From Corallococcus sp. AS-1-6 (GTDB taxonomy: Bacteria > Myxococcota > Myxococcia > Myxococcales > Myxococcaceae), in assembly GCF_020037015.1 (NCBI RefSeq), contig NZ_JAIQDE010000016.1, positions 1-64,000 of the forward strand: 64,000 nt of DNA, read 5' to 3'. Shown here one piece after another: positions 12,816 through 23,495 of this stretch (positions are counted from its first letter, which is position 1; every line of letters starts with the position of its first letter). Position numbers and translations under genes: made by a program. Under the pieces are notes generated by a model that made no database searches, was not told the DNA's origin, and saw only the letters and a program-made list of their open reading frames with translations.

Positions 12816-13265
12816 TCAACGGCGCGGCAGCGGCTGCTGCCGCGTCCCCACGAGCGGCTGCTGGAGCTGATACGTCCCGTTCATCGGCTGCTGGAGCTGG
12901 TAGCTGCCGATGAGCGGCTGCTGCAGTTCGTACGTGCCGATGAGCGGCTGCTGGAGCTGGTACGTGCCGACCGGCGGCTGCTCGAGCTGGTACGTGCCGG
13001 CCATGGGCTGTTGGAGCTGATACGCGCCGGCCATCGGCTGTTCGAGCTGGTACGCGCCGGCGAGGGGCTGCTGGGGCGGCTGATACCAGTAATTGTCCCA
13101 GAAGGCGCCGTCGCCGGAATTGCTTGTCACTGATTGCCGGTCATCCAGGTTCTGCGAGTCATTGCCCTCCGGGGCCGTCATCGCTTCGTCCTGCTGCGCC
13201 AGGGCCGTCATGGCCGGACCTGACGCGAGCGCCACCACCAGGGTCACCAAAGGTCCGGTGCGCAT
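12816..13265 (-). CDS. Secreted protein made of eight 10-residue repeats
   Basis: The 149-residue product has a signal peptide (residues 1-23, cleavage after ALA) and an acidic linker. From residue 66 it carries eight near-perfect decapeptides of the form QP(L/M)(A/I)G(T/A)YQLQ. Every unit begins Gln-Pro and carries Gly-x-Tyr. The protein ends in Pro-Arg-Arg. I do not recognise a family. The regular Gln/Tyr/Pro pattern suggests a cell-surface or matrix structural role, but that is a guess. It faces the beta-helix lipoprotein gene across a 350-bp control region. Confidence 0.7.
   Translation of the reverse strand: MRTGPLVTLVVALASGPAMTALAQQDEAMTAPEGNDSQNLDDRQSVTSNSGDGAFWDNYWYQPPQQPLAGAYQLEQPMAGAYQLQQPMAGTYQLEQPPVGTYQLQQPLIGTYELQQPLIGSYQLQQPMNGTYQLQQPLVGTRQQPLPRR
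12834..13070. repeat. 30-bp coding tandem repeat, eight units
   Basis: In-frame 30-bp units encoding the QPxxGxYQLx decapeptides. Neighbouring units differ mostly at codons 3, 4 and 6, so the array looks maintained by duplication and diversification. Confidence 0.85.
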
Positions 13266-16394: not shown

Positions 16395-17672
16395 TCAGGT
16401 GGCCGGCGACGGGGGCTCCTCCAGCCCCACGTTGCTGGACGCGCGGTTGTAGACGGCCAGGTCCAGGAGCCCCTCCTCGCGGGCCACCAGGACGGGCACC
16501 AGCATCTGCCCGGTGACGTTGGTGAGGGTGCGCATCATGTCCAGCACCCGGTCGATGGCCAGCAGGTAGCCCAGCCCCTCCAGGGGCAGCCCCGCGGCGC
16601 TGAGGACCACGGTGGTCATCACCACCGCCGTGCCGGGCACGCCCGCGGTGCCGAAGCTGCCCAGCACGGACGCCAGCAGGATGATGAAGAGCTGGGGCGC
16701 GGACAGCGTCAGGCCGAAGTACTGGGCGATGAAGAGCGACGTCATGGCCGGGTAGATGGCGCCGCAGCCGTCCATCTTGATGGTGGCGCCCAGGGGCACC
16801 GCGAACGCCGCGTAGTCCCGGTTGACGCCCAGGTTGTGGGTGACGCTGCGCAGGGCCACCGGCATGGACGCGAAGCTGGAGGAGCTGACGAACGCCACCT
16901 GCATGCCCGGCGCGGCGCCCCGGAAGAAGCGCAGCGGGTTGAGCCCGTGCGCGGCGAGCAGCCCGCCGTACACGAAGACGACGTGCACCGCGCACGCGAG
17001 GTACAGCGTGAGGACGAAGGTGCCCAGGGGCAGGAGGCGCTCGAAGCCGTAGGTGCCCACCAGCGCGGCGATGAGGCCGAAGGTGCCCAGCGGCGTCAGC
17101 TCCAGCACGAAGCGGGTGACCTGGATCATCGCGTCGCTGGCCTCGCCCACGAGCTGCCGCAGCCGCGCGGTGCGCTCCCCCAGCTTCACCAGCGCGAAGC
17201 CCAGGAGGCCCGCGAAGAAGATGACCTGGAGCATCTTGCCCTCCGCCAGCGCGGCGAAGGGGTTGGTGGGCACCACGTCCAGCAGCACCTGCACGGGGCC
17301 CGGCACCTGGCGGGGCTTGTAGTCACTGGCCGCCTGGAGCGTGCCCACGCCCACGCCCGGCTTCGTGAGCGCGGCGGTGCCCAGGCCCACGCCCACGGCC
17401 AGCGCGGCGGTGACGCCGAACCAGAGGAAGGTGCGGCCGCCCAGCGCCGCCACGCTCTTCTGGCCGCGCAGCGCGGACACCGCGTGGATGACGGCGAAGA
17501 ACACCAGCGGCGTGGCGATCATCCGGATGAGCTGCACGTAGAGCGTGCCCAGGGGCTGGAGCCACGTGCCGGCGCGGTCGCCCAGCGCCCACCCGGCGAG
17601 CGCGCCCAGCACGAAGGCGCCCAGCACGCGCTGCCAGAAGGGAATGCGGAACCAGCGGGCCCAGGGCTTCAT
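16395..17672 (-). CDS. Dicarboxylate/amino acid:cation symporter (DAACS family)
   Basis: Inner-membrane secondary transporter of 425 residues with the GltPh/DctA fold. The first hairpin carries SSSFASMPVALRSV (normally SSSxxTLP). The core TM7 motif is PLGATIKMDGCGAIYP (normally NMDG), and the second hairpin has GTAGVPGTAVVM. The last core helix carries AIDRVLDMMRTLTNVTGQ; the usual Asp that binds the amino group and the Arg that selects C4-dicarboxylates are both visible in this RxxDxxRTxxN-like segment. Substrate (glutamate/aspartate or succinate/malate) is not decided. Convergent with the cytochrome gene and divergent from the peptide gene. Confidence 0.9.
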   Translation of the reverse strand: MKPWARWFRIPFWQRVLGAFVLGALAGWALGDRAGTWLQPLGTLYVQLIRMIATPLVFFAVIHAVSALRGQKSVAALGGRTFLWFGVTAALAVGVGLGTAALTKPGVGVGTLQAASDYKPRQVPGPVQVLLDVVPTNPFAALAEGKMLQVIFFAGLLGFALVKLGERTARLRQLVGEASDAMIQVTRFVLELTPLGTFGLIAALVGTYGFERLLPLGTFVLTLYLACAVHVVFVYGGLLAAHGLNPLRFFRGAAPGMQVAFVSSSSFASMPVALRSVTHNLGVNRDYAAFAVPLGATIKMDGCGAIYPAMTSLFIAQYFGLTLSAPQLFIILLASVLGSFGTAGVPGTAVVMTTVVLSAAGLPLEGLGYLLAIDRVLDMMRTLTNVTGQMLVPVLVAREEGLLDLAVYNRASSNVGLEEPPSPAT

Positions 17673-17834
17673 CGCGAGACACCTCTCACACCGGTGGACG
17701 GGCGGACCCTAACCCCCTCGCGGGTCCGGCGCCGCGCTCCCCCGCGCGGGACGCCCCACATCATTGCGACCCGCTCCCCGGCCCCCTAGGCTCCGGACCG
17801 CTTTTCCCTCCAATCCAATGCCGGGAGTGCTCCC

Positions 17835-18029
17835 TTGAAATTCACGAGCAAGGACGTGTCGAAGCTGCTGGAGGACGTGAGCGGGTCCGAGGACCTCATC
17901 GGGTACGCCTGCGCCACGTCGTACATGAACGGCTACCAGTGGACCTGGAACGGCACCCAGTGGGTGGGCACCTACTACCCCACGTCGCTCAAGATGCCGG
18001 TGGGCGAGGACGCGTCCGGCTCCTGCTAG
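17835..18029 (+). CDS. 64-residue peptide gene coupled to a subtilase
   Basis: A TTG start with GGGAG seven bases upstream encodes a 64-residue peptide, followed after 3 nt by the subtilase gene. The N-terminal third (FTSKDVSKLLEDVSGSEDLI) is an acidic amphipathic helix like a RiPP leader. The rest is rich in Gly, Tyr, Trp and Thr and has Cys at 26 and at the very C-terminus (64). There is no signal peptide and I recognise no family. Possible roles are a precursor peptide processed by the protease, or an inhibitor/propeptide acting in trans. Ribosome-binding site, spacing and shared strand make it a real gene rather than a chance frame. Confidence 0.65.
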   Translation: MKFTSKDVSKLLEDVSGSEDLIGYACATSYMNGYQWTWNGTQWVGTYYPTSLKMPVGEDASGSC

Positions 18030-18032
18030 GCG

Positions 18033-18767
18033 ATGGCTCCAGGTCCTGCCCCCGTGAAGGTCGCCATCGTGGACAGCGGTGTGTCGGTGGGCTTCCTTCG
18101 CGGGGCGGGGCTGGCGCTCGCCGGGGGCGCGAGCTTCACGGTGGACCGGGAGGCGCGGCGCCTGGAGTCCCGCGTCCACTCGCGTGAGGAGCTGGCGGCC
18201 TGGCGCGGCGGCGACCGCGTGCTGGAGGACCTGGAGGACACGCACGGCCACGGCACCGCGGTGCTGAGCATCCTGATGGACCAGGGCCGTCCCGGCGCCG
18301 GCGTGGAGTGGTACGTCGCGCGCGTGCTGGACGGGCGGATGCGCGGCGATTCGCTGGGCCTGCTGGAGGCGCTGGAGTGGCTGACGCAGGACGTGCGGCC
18401 GGACCTCATCAACCTGAGCCTGGGCACCGTGGGCCGCGCCTTCGAGGCGCCCCTCACCGCGCTGCTGGACCGGGCGGTGGGGCAGGGCAGCCTGGTGCTC
18501 TGCGCCGCGGGGCCCGTGTCGGGCCTGCCGTCCGGGCTGCCGTCGGTGGTGACGGTGGCGGACGCGGCCACGGCCCACGCGCTGAGGAAGGGGGACCTCG
18601 TGGACCACGTCGAGCACGCGTCCAAGGTGCGGCTGTACGCGGACGGGGCCTGGGTCGAGCGCCCCATCACGACCAGCTATGCCTGCGCGCTGGCGGCGGC
18701 GCGGGTGCTGCGCGAGGGCTGTCCTCCCGGGTGGCGGCGCGTCACCGCGTCACAGCGGACGCGGTGA
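18033..18767 (+). CDS. Small cytoplasmic S8 (subtilisin-like) protease
   Basis: The 244-residue protein lacks a signal peptide and propeptide, so it should act in the cytoplasm. The subtilase triad is present: Asp14 (VAIVDSGV), His73 (THGHGTAV) and Ser215 (ITTSYACALA in place of GTSMAAPH). LINLSLGTVG matches the conserved strand before the oxyanion region. The oxyanion-hole Asn of the AAGN motif is replaced by Pro161 (CAAGPVSG), which should weaken or alter catalysis. The gene follows the 64-residue peptide gene by 3 nt, so the peptide is the obvious candidate substrate or partner. Convergent with the catalase gene. Confidence 0.8.
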   Translation: MAPGPAPVKVAIVDSGVSVGFLRGAGLALAGGASFTVDREARRLESRVHSREELAAWRGGDRVLEDLEDTHGHGTAVLSILMDQGRPGAGVEWYVARVLDGRMRGDSLGLLEALEWLTQDVRPDLINLSLGTVGRAFEAPLTALLDRAVGQGSLVLCAAGPVSGLPSGLPSVVTVADAATAHALRKGDLVDHVEHASKVRLYADGAWVERPITTSYACALAAARVLREGCPPGWRRVTASQRTR

Positions 18768-18788
18768 CGCCGCTCACCGGGTGGGGCC

Positions 18789-20903
18789 TCAGGCCGGGAC
18801 GCGGTCGTGGTCCTTGCGGTCCCAGTGCCGGTGCTTCGCGAGCGCCTGCGCGAACGCGGTGGCCAGCGCCGCTCCGGCCCCGGCCTTGGAGCCCGCGACG
18901 ACGCCGGGCGCGGCCGGGTCGATTTCACAGGCCTTGAGCAGCTCCTCCGCGTCCTTGGACGCGCCCACCGTCTTGCAGTGCAGGTAGGCCTCCTGGACGA
19001 AGTGGCGCGACTCGCCGTCCTTCTTCAGCGTGGCCACGCTCGCGGCGCCGCCGGGGATGAAGACGGCGTCGTACTCCACGGAGGCGGTGGTCATGGCGCT
19101 CTTGTCCACCGGCAGGTCCTTGCCGTTGGAGGCCTTCACGGTGCCCAGGCGCTTGGCGATGACCTTCAGTTGCGCGCCCCCCGCCTGCAGCTCCTTGCGC
19201 AGCGCCATCAGCTCGTCCGCGTCCACGCCGTCCGCGACGAGCACGCCCACCTTCCGCGTCTTGATGGACGGCGGCGTGGCCATCTTCATCGCCTCCATGC
19301 TCAGGGCCTTGGACGCGGGAGGGCCCTTGGGCGTGACGGGGGTGGCCTTGGGCGCGGGCAGCCCCAGCCCCTCCGCCACGGCGGAGACGAGCAGGGCGTC
19401 GATCTTCGCGAAGTGCTCCAGCACGCGCTCCTGGATGGCCTTCGTCTCCACCTTGCCCAGCTCGAAGCGGCACGCGTCGATGAGGTGCTGCTGCTCCGGC
19501 TCGGAGAGGCTGCGGAAGAAGAGGGCCGCCTGGCTGTAGTGGTCGTTGAAGGAGGCGGAGCGCTCGCGCACCTTCTTCCCGCTCACCTGCTCCGGGTGGT
19601 GCACGAAGCCGCCCTGCTGCTGGGACGCGAGGAACGGGCAGCCGCCGCCCAGCGAGTTGGGGAAGTAGTTGGCGCGGCCCACGTTGCTGGTGTGCCGGCC
19701 GAAGCCGTCCTGCTGGTGGTTGTGCACCGGCGCCACCGGGCGGTTGATGGGGATCTCCGCGAAGTTCGGCCCGCCCAGGCGCGTGAGCTGCGTGTCCAGG
19801 TACGAGAAGAGCCGCGCCTGCATCAGCGGATCATCCGTGAAGTCGATGCCCGGCACGATGTTGGACACGCAGAAGGCGACCTGCTCCGTCTCCGCGAAGA
19901 AGTTGGTCGGGTTGCGGTTGAGCGTGAGCTTGCCCACCGGCCGCACCGGGACGACCTCCTCCGGGATGAGCTTCGTCGCGTCCAGCAGGTCCACGCCCAG
20001 CGCCTGCGCGTCCTTCTCCTCCAGGATCTGGACGCCCAGCTCGTACTCGGGGAAGTCGCCCTGCTCGATGGCCTCGAAGAGGTCGCGGCGGTGGAAGTCC
20101 GGGTCCTTGCCGCCGAGCTTCTGCGCTTCATCCCAGACGAGCGAGTGCGTGCCCAGCAGCGGCTTCCAGTGGAACTTCACGAAGCGCGAGGTGCTCTTTT
20201 CGTCCACGAAGCGGAAGGTGTGGACGCCGAAGCCCTGCATCATCCGGAAGCTGCGCGGGATGGCGCGGTCGGACATGGTCCACATGACCATGTGCATCGT
20301 CTCCGGGACGAGCGACACGAAGTCCCAGAAGGAGTCATGCGCCGTCTGCGCCTGGGGAATCTCGTGGTGGGGCCCTGGCTTGGCGGCGTGGATGATGTCC
20401 GGGAACTTGATGCCGTCCTGGATGAAGAAGACGGGGATGTTGTTGCCCACCAGGTCCCAGTTGCCTTCTTCCGTGTAGAACTTCACCGCGAAGCCGCGCA
20501 CGTCGCGCACGGTGTCCGCGGAGCCGCGCGAGCCCGCGACGGTGGAGAAGCGCACGAAGACGGGCGTCTTCTTGGACGGATCCTGGAGGAACTTCGCGCG
20601 GGTGTACTTCGCCTGGGATTCGTACACCTGGAAGTAGCCGTGGGCGCCGGAGCCGCGCGCGTGGACGACGCGTTCGGGGATGCGCTCATGGTCGAAGCGG
20701 GTGAGCTTCTCGCGGAAGTGGAAGTCCTCCAGGAGCGTGGGGCCGCGCGCGCCAATCTTGAGCGAGTCGTCGGTGTGTTCGACGCGGATGCCCTGGTCGG
20801 TGGTGAGGAAGTTGCCCGTGGGCTCCGAGCGGTCCCGCGCGAGCTGCTGGTCCTTGCTCTTCTCATCGACGCGCACCGCGTCCGGCTGATTCTGTGAGGT
20901 CAC
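18789..20903 (-). CDS. katE: Large-subunit catalase with C-terminal DJ-1/PfpI domain (HPII type)
   Basis: Heme catalase of clade 2, 704 residues, decomposing hydrogen peroxide. The catalytic His81 lies in RVVHARGSGAHGYF, the distal Asn in VGNNIPVFFIQDG, and the proximal heme Tyr in LFSYLDTQLTRLGGPNF. After a linker at about residues 520-550, a flavodoxin-like DJ-1/PfpI domain follows (VGVLVADGVDADEL, FIPGGAASV), as in E. coli HPII. A normal large catalase. GTG start with AAGGAGG eight bases upstream. Like HPII it may be a stationary-phase or stress gene, which is not visible in the sequence. It lies 142 bp downstream of an oxidoreductase gene on the same strand. Confidence 0.95.
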   Translation of the reverse strand: MTSQNQPDAVRVDEKSKDQQLARDRSEPTGNFLTTDQGIRVEHTDDSLKIGARGPTLLEDFHFREKLTRFDHERIPERVVHARGSGAHGYFQVYESQAKYTRAKFLQDPSKKTPVFVRFSTVAGSRGSADTVRDVRGFAVKFYTEEGNWDLVGNNIPVFFIQDGIKFPDIIHAAKPGPHHEIPQAQTAHDSFWDFVSLVPETMHMVMWTMSDRAIPRSFRMMQGFGVHTFRFVDEKSTSRFVKFHWKPLLGTHSLVWDEAQKLGGKDPDFHRRDLFEAIEQGDFPEYELGVQILEEKDAQALGVDLLDATKLIPEEVVPVRPVGKLTLNRNPTNFFAETEQVAFCVSNIVPGIDFTDDPLMQARLFSYLDTQLTRLGGPNFAEIPINRPVAPVHNHQQDGFGRHTSNVGRANYFPNSLGGGCPFLASQQQGGFVHHPEQVSGKKVRERSASFNDHYSQAALFFRSLSEPEQQHLIDACRFELGKVETKAIQERVLEHFAKIDALLVSAVAEGLGLPAPKATPVTPKGPPASKALSMEAMKMATPPSIKTRKVGVLVADGVDADELMALRKELQAGGAQLKVIAKRLGTVKASNGKDLPVDKSAMTTASVEYDAVFIPGGAASVATLKKDGESRHFVQEAYLHCKTVGASKDAEELLKACEIDPAAPGVVAGSKAGAGAALATAFAQALAKHRHWDRKDHDRVPA

Positions 20904-22068: not shown

Positions 22069-22263
22069 GAGGGGGACCTTTCGTGGGTGGATGGAGATGC
22101 GGGCCTCTTAACCGCCGGGTGCGGGCGCGGCAGGGAATTGGACGGGAACCTGTGGAAGATGTGTGGGGTAGGGTGTTGGGCGTGTGCCCTGTCATGTCGG
22201 ACGGGCGTGCTACCAACCGCCTTCATGGATAGAGTGATGGGCGGCGAGGACTGGGGAGACGTG

Positions 22264-22824
22264 ATGGGAAAGAAGCCCGCGACCTATGCGGACCTGGAGG
22301 CGCTTCCCGAGCATGTCGTGGGGGAGCTTGTCGCGGGAGAGCTGTACGCAAGCCCACGGCCGGCGATGCTGCATGGCGTGGTGTCCTCCCGGCTTGGGGG
22401 AGAGCTCATGGGCCCCTTCTCGCGGGGGCGAGGTGGGCCTGGGGGCTGGATGCTCCTGGACGAACCGGAGTTGCACTTCGGGGCTGACGTCGTGGTTCCG
22501 GATGTCGCGGGCTGGAGGCTGGAGCGGATGCCCGATGTTCCCGAAACAGCAGCGACGTCTCTTGCCCCGGACTGGGTCTGCGAGGTGCTGTCTCCGTCCA
22601 CCTGGAAGCTGGACCGCGAGGTGAAGCTGCCGGTGTACGCGCGCGAGGGCGTGCGGCATGTCTGGTTGATGGAACCGCGCACGCGAACGCTGGAGGTGTT
22701 CGGGCTGCGGGATGGAAGGTACGAAGCGCTGCTCACGCATACCGGGGATGCTCCCGTGCGGGCGGAGCCCTTCGACGCGGTGGAGCTGGACCTCGCGTTC
22801 ATCTGGGGGCGCACGGCGAGCTGA
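22264..22824 (+). CDS. Uma2-family (DUF820) putative endonuclease, copy 1
   Basis: A 186-residue protein with the PD-(D/E)xK-like core of the Uma2 family: EPELHFGADVVVPDVAGW, then WVCEVLSPST and the Lys-rich helix LDREVKLPVYAREGVRHVW. Members are widespread in myxobacteria and cyanobacteria, and their role is unproven. The start at 22264 (MGKKPATYADLEALP) has GGGAG just upstream. An upstream in-frame ATG at 22225 would add 13 residues (MDRVMGGEDWGDV). The same extension, identical in DNA, precedes copy 2, so it is either translated or a conserved leader. Confidence 0.8.
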   Translation: MGKKPATYADLEALPEHVVGELVAGELYASPRPAMLHGVVSSRLGGELMGPFSRGRGGPGGWMLLDEPELHFGADVVVPDVAGWRLERMPDVPETAATSLAPDWVCEVLSPSTWKLDREVKLPVYAREGVRHVWLMEPRTRTLEVFGLRDGRYEALLTHTGDAPVRAEPFDAVELDLAFIWGRTAS

Positions 22825-22937
22825 AAGGATGGGACCTCCAGGGTCCAGGGATGACCGTCCGCCCTGATACGTCAGACGGGTGTGCTACCTCCCCCGTCAT
22901 GGATAGAGTGATGGGCGGCGAGGACTGGAGGGAATCC

Positions 22938-23495
22938 ATGGGAAAGAAACCCGCGACCTACGCGGACCTGGAGGCGCTCCCGGAGCATGTCGTGGGGGAG
23001 GTTGTCGCAGGGGAGCTGTATGCGAGCCCGCGTCCGGCGTTTCCCCATCTCACGGCGGCTTCGTTCCTGATGGGGCTCTTGGGCAATCCCTTCGTCTTTG
23101 GACTGGGCGGCCCGGGAGGCTGGTACATCGTGAGCGAGCCCGAGCTGCGGCTGGGGGACGATGTCCTCATTCCGGACCTGGCGGGATGGCGGCGCGAGCG
23201 ACTCCCGAAGGCGCCGAAGGTCGCGGCCCTTTCCCTTCCGCCAGACTGGGTCTGCGAGGTGCTTTCTCCGTCGACGCGCCTCCTGGACCGCGAAGTGAAA
23301 CTGCCGGTGTTCGCGCGCGAAGGGGTGGGGCATGTCTGGTTCATCGACCCGGTCCTCCGCACCCTGGAAGTGTTCCGGTTGGAGTCGGGACAGTACGTGC
23401 AACTGGCGACCCACTCTGGAACCGACTCCGTGTCCGCCGAACCTTTCGAGGCAGTGGCATTGAGGCTCGCCGTGCTCTGGGACGAACTGGACTGA
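22938..23495 (+). CDS. Uma2-family (DUF820) putative endonuclease, copy 2
   Basis: Tandem paralogue of the gene 114 bp upstream, 185 residues. It has the same core: EPELRLGDDVLIPDLAGW, WVCEVLSPST and LDREVKLPVFAREGVGHVW. The first 30 residues are almost identical to copy 1, while the segment after SPRPA is highly diverged. The ribosome-binding site is GGAGG with a seven-base gap, which supports the MGKKP start. The duplication includes about 65 bp of upstream DNA, so both copies probably carry similar promoters. Confidence 0.8.
   Translation: MGKKPATYADLEALPEHVVGEVVAGELYASPRPAFPHLTAASFLMGLLGNPFVFGLGGPGGWYIVSEPELRLGDDVLIPDLAGWRRERLPKAPKVAALSLPPDWVCEVLSPSTRLLDREVKLPVFAREGVGHVWFIDPVLRTLEVFRLESGQYVQLATHSGTDSVSAEPFEAVALRLAVLWDELD

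Follow-up and report, generated by a model that had tools for sequence, protein, structure and literature searches.

A peptide gene and an adjacent compact subtilase gene in Corallococcus, a probable satellite of a RiPP-like cluster

The peptide gene and its adjacent subtilase

The window, which is the whole 64,000 nucleotide stretch of DNA analysed from the 9.5 Mb genome of the predatory soil bacterium Corallococcus sp. AS-1-6, contains a plus-strand gene for a small peptide and, directly after it, one for a compact subtilase (Table 1). As the original prediction had it, the peptide frame starts with TTG, encodes 64 residues and ends in a cysteine, with the subtilase ORF next. Of the neighbouring genes, the one upstream is presumably symporter-like and the one downstream catalase-like. 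Both run on the opposite strand, therefore the peptide and protease genes are an isolated two-gene unit. A scan of positions 17600-18900 for promoters and terminators found nothing.

Table 1. Features of the peptide and subtilase locus
Feature	Position	Strand	Basis
GGGAG, likely ribosome-binding site, 7 nt 5' of the TTG	17823-17827	+	Read in the sequence
Precursor-like peptide gene, 64 aa, TTG start	17835-18029	+	ORF; orthologs with intact frame at 12/12 loci; family profile 79.8 bits
Compact subtilase gene, 237 aa, GTG start	18054-18767	+	PF00082; ortholog-based start; triad and Pro; fold

The first 23 residues of the window peptide are leader-like, and the core that follows has Cys26, Cys64, a tryptophan, a tyrosine and a GED motif. 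The peptide has no Pfam match at E-values up to 10. GGGAG or AGGAG is present at the ribosome-binding site position in all six of the orthologous upstream sequences compared. The GGGAG of the window lies within a short inverted repeat, GGGAGTGCTCCC (17823-17834), which ends just before the TTG; this repeat is identical or nearly so in the same six orthologous upstream sequences.

The original prediction depended on the peptide frame being conserved between species. The frame is intact at all 12 orthologous loci, each in a different Corallococcus genome, where it encodes 62-64 aa from a TTG (seven species), ATG (three) or GTG (two) start codon, and, per site, non-synonymous changes in it are fewer than synonymous ones. 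Over 66 pairs the peptide has a median dN/dS of 0.59 and the protease one of 0.41, and within a nine-species clade their pN/pS values are 0.45 and 0.36, respectively; these ratios may be overestimated, as the high GC content probably damps synonymous change. Within the window-type peptides, pN is 0.115 over the first 23 codons (pS 0.25) and 0.181 over the remainder (pS 0.24).

The protease had been predicted to start at the ATG at 18033, leaving a 3 nt gap and a protein of 244 residues. This ATG is not conserved among the orthologs, which align instead from MK(V/I)A(I/V)VDSG. In the window this corresponds to the GTG at 18054, 24 nt past the stop codon of the peptide. The gap at the 12 orthologous loci is 24-26 nt in nine species and 106-160 nt in three. 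With the start moved, the residue numbers of the original prediction, which are kept here, fall by 7.

Against PF00082 the window protease scores 31.8 bits (cut-off 21.8), which places it in the Subtilase family S8. Asp14, His73 and Ser215 were correctly assigned and align with the subtilase catalytic triad. Likewise, Pro161 is in the column of the oxyanion Asn. The model of the protease, made from 35 sequences, has a subtilisin fold at a mean pLDDT of 92; compared with known folds, its best Foldseek E-value is 1e-12 and its VIA-align Z is about 20 over about 195-200 residues. Since only seven residues precede the first strand of the model, there is no propeptide or signal segment, as had been proposed. 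Some of the other compact subtilase relatives in the alignment also have no oxyanion Asn, while most of the actinobacterial ones keep it. The missing Asn is thus common to several compact subtilases of the cytoplasmic type, and its absence is not proof of inactivity.

The position of the pair is stable. The catalase-like gene flanks it at all 12 loci and the symporter-like gene at nine; of the others, G016 and G029 have a different gene of the window neighbourhood upstream and one further locus is at a contig end. In Corallococcus genome G025 the symporter and catalase genes are about 90 bp apart. About 1.3 kb separates them in G021, G024 and G026, with no match to the pair (ORFs were read in G021). 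The pair is either an old unit held at one place or has been lost from these four genomes. Elsewhere in the window, a 149 aa ORF on the minus strand (12816-13265) has a signal-like N-terminus and seven xxGxY(Q/E)LxQP repeats. On the plus strand, at about 22240-22824 and 22851-23495, lie two related ORF parts in tandem; they share MGKKPATYADLEALPEHVVGE, and we take them to be Uma2-like.

A paralogous cluster with a fusion enzyme

A search with the window protease gave 30 strong matches (identities of 51-100%, E-values below 1e-60) in 18 of 96 genomes of the family, 12 of the window type and 18 of a second type; matches in 14 other family genomes were weak (E-values of 5e-8 to 8e-6), lay in long ORFs and were excluded as other subtilases. 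The second type belongs to a gene cluster, and its copy in the window genome is 54% identical to the window protease. The cluster has one to three peptide genes, a GH57+DUF1611 enzyme of about 1000 aa, a 600 aa ABC exporter, a small membrane protein and the subtilase, in that order. This order was read directly in the window's own genome (L069) and in L071. In G005 it was followed over a contig break, in G034 it was read for the parts other than the exporter, and contig breaks split parts of the cluster in some draft genomes. The cluster peptides begin MRYTRKN(V/I)SELL. The small protein, of 76-94 aa, apparently spans the membrane once. In L071 the start of the subtilase overlaps the preceding gene by 4 nt. 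Past the protease, the four loci have a convergent gene whose product carries repeats of the carboxypeptidase regulatory-like type, by a domain scan of the L071 protein.

The triad motifs are kept in all 12 window-type and all 16 distinct cluster-type subtilases examined. The oxyanion Asn position is Pro in every window-type subtilase; in the cluster type it is Gly in 15 and Ala in one.

The large enzyme of the cluster appears to join two domains. Its residues 3-431 align with structure 2b5d (E 1e-41), which we take to be a GH57 enzyme, as we do 1ufa. The motifs around Glu202 and Asp363, presumably the catalytic GH57 residues, are kept and also align with 1ufa. The GH57 family (PF03065) is matched at 50.9 bits (cut-off 21.2). 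Residues 790-881, with a P-loop-like GTDTVQGK motif, align with structure 2g0t (E 4e-7), presumably a DUF1611 protein; the score against DUF1611 itself (PF07755) is 24.9 bits, just under the cut-off of 25. The model of the C-terminal half, built from eight sequences, has a mean pLDDT of 38.6. The fusion enzyme is a candidate modifying enzyme of a RiPP-like cluster, although it could have another role.

The exporter matches the bacteriocin-exporter model TIGR03796 from position 140 of 710. The first 139 positions are uncovered; as this first part of the model is presumably the peptidase, the peptidase part is missing from the exporter. No C39 peptidase domain was among the best 25 of 28 Pfam families, and the exporter was not recognised as a peptidase-containing ABC transporter (PCAT), which would have such a domain at its N-terminus.

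Full-length matches to the fusion enzyme, at identities of at least 77%, are present in 18 of 142 genomes of the class; matches to the GH57 part alone, in 19 of the 142, were excluded. The peptide family profile finds the same 18 of the 142 genomes, and so does the cluster-type subtilase among the 96 family genomes searched. Of these, 15 are from the 16 Corallococcus; G005 and G006 belong to a second genus, and G034 represents a third. The remaining Corallococcus, G025, has no match for the subtilase, the fusion enzyme or the peptide profile. A wide scan of genome contigs gave none outside the Myxococcaceae among the matches listed. A search with the C-terminal half of the fusion enzyme found matches in 19 of 195 Myxococcota genomes, these being the 18 and G080, from another genus. 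In G080 the end of a contig carries a 53% identical DUF1611 part (L221:3277-5907) next to an ORF that resembles an ABC exporter. This is perhaps a variant of the cluster. A plasmid search with the fusion enzyme returned two partial matches, both to the GH57 part.

The peptide family has 65 matches, of which 12 are of the window type and 42 are in clusters. One more is partial and adjoins a cluster peptide, and the other 10 are solitary, in ten genomes. Around four of the solitary peptides (G000, G029, G030 and G006) there is neither a protease of this type nor a fusion enzyme, and the protease search of the 96 family genomes gave no match near any of the ten. The window's own genome has a solitary cluster-type peptide at L076:7911-8144, with no protease or fusion enzyme seen nearby.

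A total of 57 distinct peptides were extracted from the loci by pattern, by which unlike peptides would escape; 56 have exactly two cysteines and one has three, none of them among residues 1-23. C(S)ED, together with two or more ED, is found in each of the 45 cluster-type and solitary peptides, and all 12 window-type peptides have GED and the C-terminal Cys. Mean identity is 78% in the leader against 51% in the core of the cluster-type and solitary peptides, and 81% against 75% in the window type. On sequence comparison, the combination of a conserved leader with a variable core, a trait of RiPP precursors, thus appears in the family but is weak in the window type alone.

The pair as a satellite of the cluster

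The gene order, the conservation of both genes, their paralogy with the peptide and subtilase genes of the cluster, the co-occurrence, the fold, the triad and the missing Asn together make it probable that the window pair is a precursor and its dedicated QhpE-like leader protease, a satellite of a Myxococcaceae RiPP-like cluster from which modification and export would be supplied in trans. The conserved leader, the more variable core and the two cysteines in nearly all of the peptides support a precursor and leader-protease reading. The original prediction had the peptide as the dedicated substrate of the protease, or else its inhibitor or propeptide in trans. The first of these is probably right, as all 12 close orthologous subtilases have an intact peptide gene upstream. 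Nor are homologous subtilases without a peptide gene the rule, as the 18 paralogous ones are in genomes where related peptides are clustered with the protease.

The window peptide would be a precursor with an N-terminal leader of about 23 residues and a core with two cysteines, aromatic residues and a Glu-Asp motif. It would be modified first, by the GH57+DUF1611 fusion enzyme supplied from the paralogous cluster. The leader would then be removed, presumably at a cut site that follows it, by the adjacent subtilase acting as the peptide's own cytoplasmic leader protease, QhpE-like and possibly slow or single-turnover. As the exporter of the cluster has no recognisable leader peptidase, this role is left for the subtilase. 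The product would be exported through the ABC transporter of the cluster as a secreted peptide, and the two cysteines may form a disulfide after export. In the window pair both the leader and the protease have diverged; the solitary precursors whose surroundings were read have a cluster-like leader and no adjoining protease. This would be expected if a leader and its protease have to fit each other and the remaining steps are common to all. The window-type core has no C(S)ED of the cluster type and its leader is different, therefore its recognition by the cluster enzyme is uncertain.

It had also been proposed that no other RiPP enzyme is adjacent and that a protease-only system would be new. 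The first part is correct at the window locus. It does not extend to the family, which has a cluster with a candidate modifying enzyme. An autonomous system, in which the subtilase cuts the peptide, a general route takes up or secretes the product, no further enzyme is needed and the cluster is merely an evolutionary relative, would account for a pair that stands alone between opposite-strand genes, at a fixed place, with leader and core diverged from the cluster type. Such self-sufficiency is nevertheless rather unlikely. All 12 genomes with the pair have kept the cluster, which contains another protease of this kind as well as the candidate modifying enzyme, while six genomes carry the cluster only; this co-occurrence fits dependence but is statistically weak, because the 12 genomes are of one genus and do not represent 12 independent events. 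In addition, the W, Y, Glu-Asp and late Cys of the window core are in register with those of the cluster peptides. A protease-only system was rejected as the first choice because the family shows the full cluster.

The other original proposal, that the peptide is a trans-acting propeptide, as a folding helper, or an inhibitor of the subtilase, is improbable. The window peptide is close in size to subtilisin propeptides, and a propeptide is absent from the protease itself. Against this, a single protease is accompanied by two or three peptides in several clusters, ten genomes have a solitary peptide without a protease nearby, the C-terminal half of the peptide is the more variable, and there is the lack of any Pfam match. 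It is also improbable that, in the manner of qhp, the peptide once processed serves a larger enzyme as a subunit or as the carrier of its cofactor and is not a free product. The nearest functional analogue, QhpE, does process a subunit precursor (PMC7876137, in the portion of the article consulted). The several diverging copies per genome and the solitary copies, however, better suit a diversifying product, and no partner enzyme was recognised in the cluster. That the window pair is a decaying, functionless remnant, as the survival of just two cluster components at this locus might indicate, is scarcely credible when both frames are open, the triad motifs are kept throughout and the median dN/dS of each gene is below 1.

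If the satellite reading is extended to the whole family, a tentative proposal follows, which is possible but for now the less probable outcome. The family may be an undescribed RiPP-like class of Corallococcus and two related genera, its sole recognisable modifying enzyme being the GH57+DUF1611 fusion, which would act on two-Cys, Glu-Asp-rich precursors, for example by glycosylation or by carboxylate chemistry driven by ATP. Scattered precursors would be served by one central cluster, and the window pair would be a split-off satellite whose Asn-less subtilase is its own and acts stoichiometrically, possibly a single time. This would be a new class of peptide maturation, with a candidate enzyme in which a P-loop domain is fused to a glucan-enzyme fold. 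To our knowledge, neither the glucan-enzyme (GH57) fold nor such a P-loop domain occurs in RiPP pathways. The detached pair would be a natural case of a pathway splitting through divergence of leader and protease while enzyme and exporter are shared, which could be tested within one genome.

Comparison with known subtilase systems

The cluster was not found described in the open-access literature searched. In that literature, no paper joining Corallococcus, RiPP and subtilisin was found, DUF1611 was not mentioned together with RiPP among the matches listed, and DUF1611 was not found with Corallococcus. The single paper that combines GH57 with a precursor peptide appears to be unrelated, and the papers listed for DgcN or DUF1611 deal with other subjects. 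A graspetide assignment was rejected, since the Corallococcus graspetide cluster in the consulted portion of PMC13097080 differs and has a graspetide synthetase. Compared with the GH57 enzymes 2b5d and 1ufa and the DUF1611 protein 2g0t, the cluster enzyme fuses both and is tied to peptide clusters.

At 8 of the 18 scanned loci with compact subtilases of the actinobacterial type, an ORF has at least two D(V/I)(E/A)(G/A)H motifs, mostly DDVEGH: L114:10725-11090, L116:11031-11342, L119:10747-11037 and L131:1751-2416 (after the protease, on the same strand), and also L118, L129, L130 and L132, with L129 and L130 being two scaffolds of one strain that have identical hits. A literature search gave nothing relevant among the matches listed.

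NisP, ElxP and PatA/PatG are subtilisin-family leader proteases of RiPP pathways, of which ElxP is cytoplasmic, as outlined in the consulted portion of PMC10885120. As in those pathways, there are small precursors with leader and core and a subtilase, here a candidate, for leader removal. In contrast to them, there is no recognised RiPP modifying enzyme, the protease is without the oxyanion Asn, and the precursors are spread over several loci.

Membership of the QhpE family was rejected on score. Against the QhpE profile NF049966 (cut-off 165) the window protease reaches 58.8 bits and the cluster type 72.4, and other subtilases score as high. The profile matches subtilases in 132 of 147 genomes of the class, at up to 97 bits with none over the cut-off, and is therefore no evidence for a QhpE assignment. 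A plasmid carries an unannotated QhpE-like region, which was read as ORFs.

The resemblance to QhpE is one of arrangement. QhpE is reported to be a single-turnover cytoplasmic leader protease encoded beside an exporter gene, and its substrate is a subunit precursor in the quinohemoprotein amine dehydrogenase pathway (both from the consulted portion of PMC7876137). The cluster differs from qhp in having the GH57+DUF1611 enzyme, and its peptides are unrelated in sequence by eye. Neither QhpC nor a radical SAM enzyme was recognised among the window neighbours or among the five cluster-region proteins and one peptide from L071 and L069, nor was a flavin enzyme recognised in the cluster. Like QhpE in its qhp operon with QhpC and QhpF, however, the window subtilase is compact, is without signal peptide or propeptide, and adjoins its presumed peptide substrate. 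The cluster version, like the QhpE-type locus L151, has an exporter-like gene shortly upstream of the protease. The oxyanion Asn is absent from the QhpE-type proteases of L151/L231 and L268 (Glu there), as it is from the window subtilase; L151/L231 score above the NF049966 cut-off, and L268, itself unscored, is 59% identical to them over the match. The missing Asn may be linked to single turnover, a question that would become testable on a small protein if the satellite reading is correct. The pairing of a cytoplasmic, Asn-less subtilase with the substrate it cuts, as in QhpE, would then reach beyond amine dehydrogenase.
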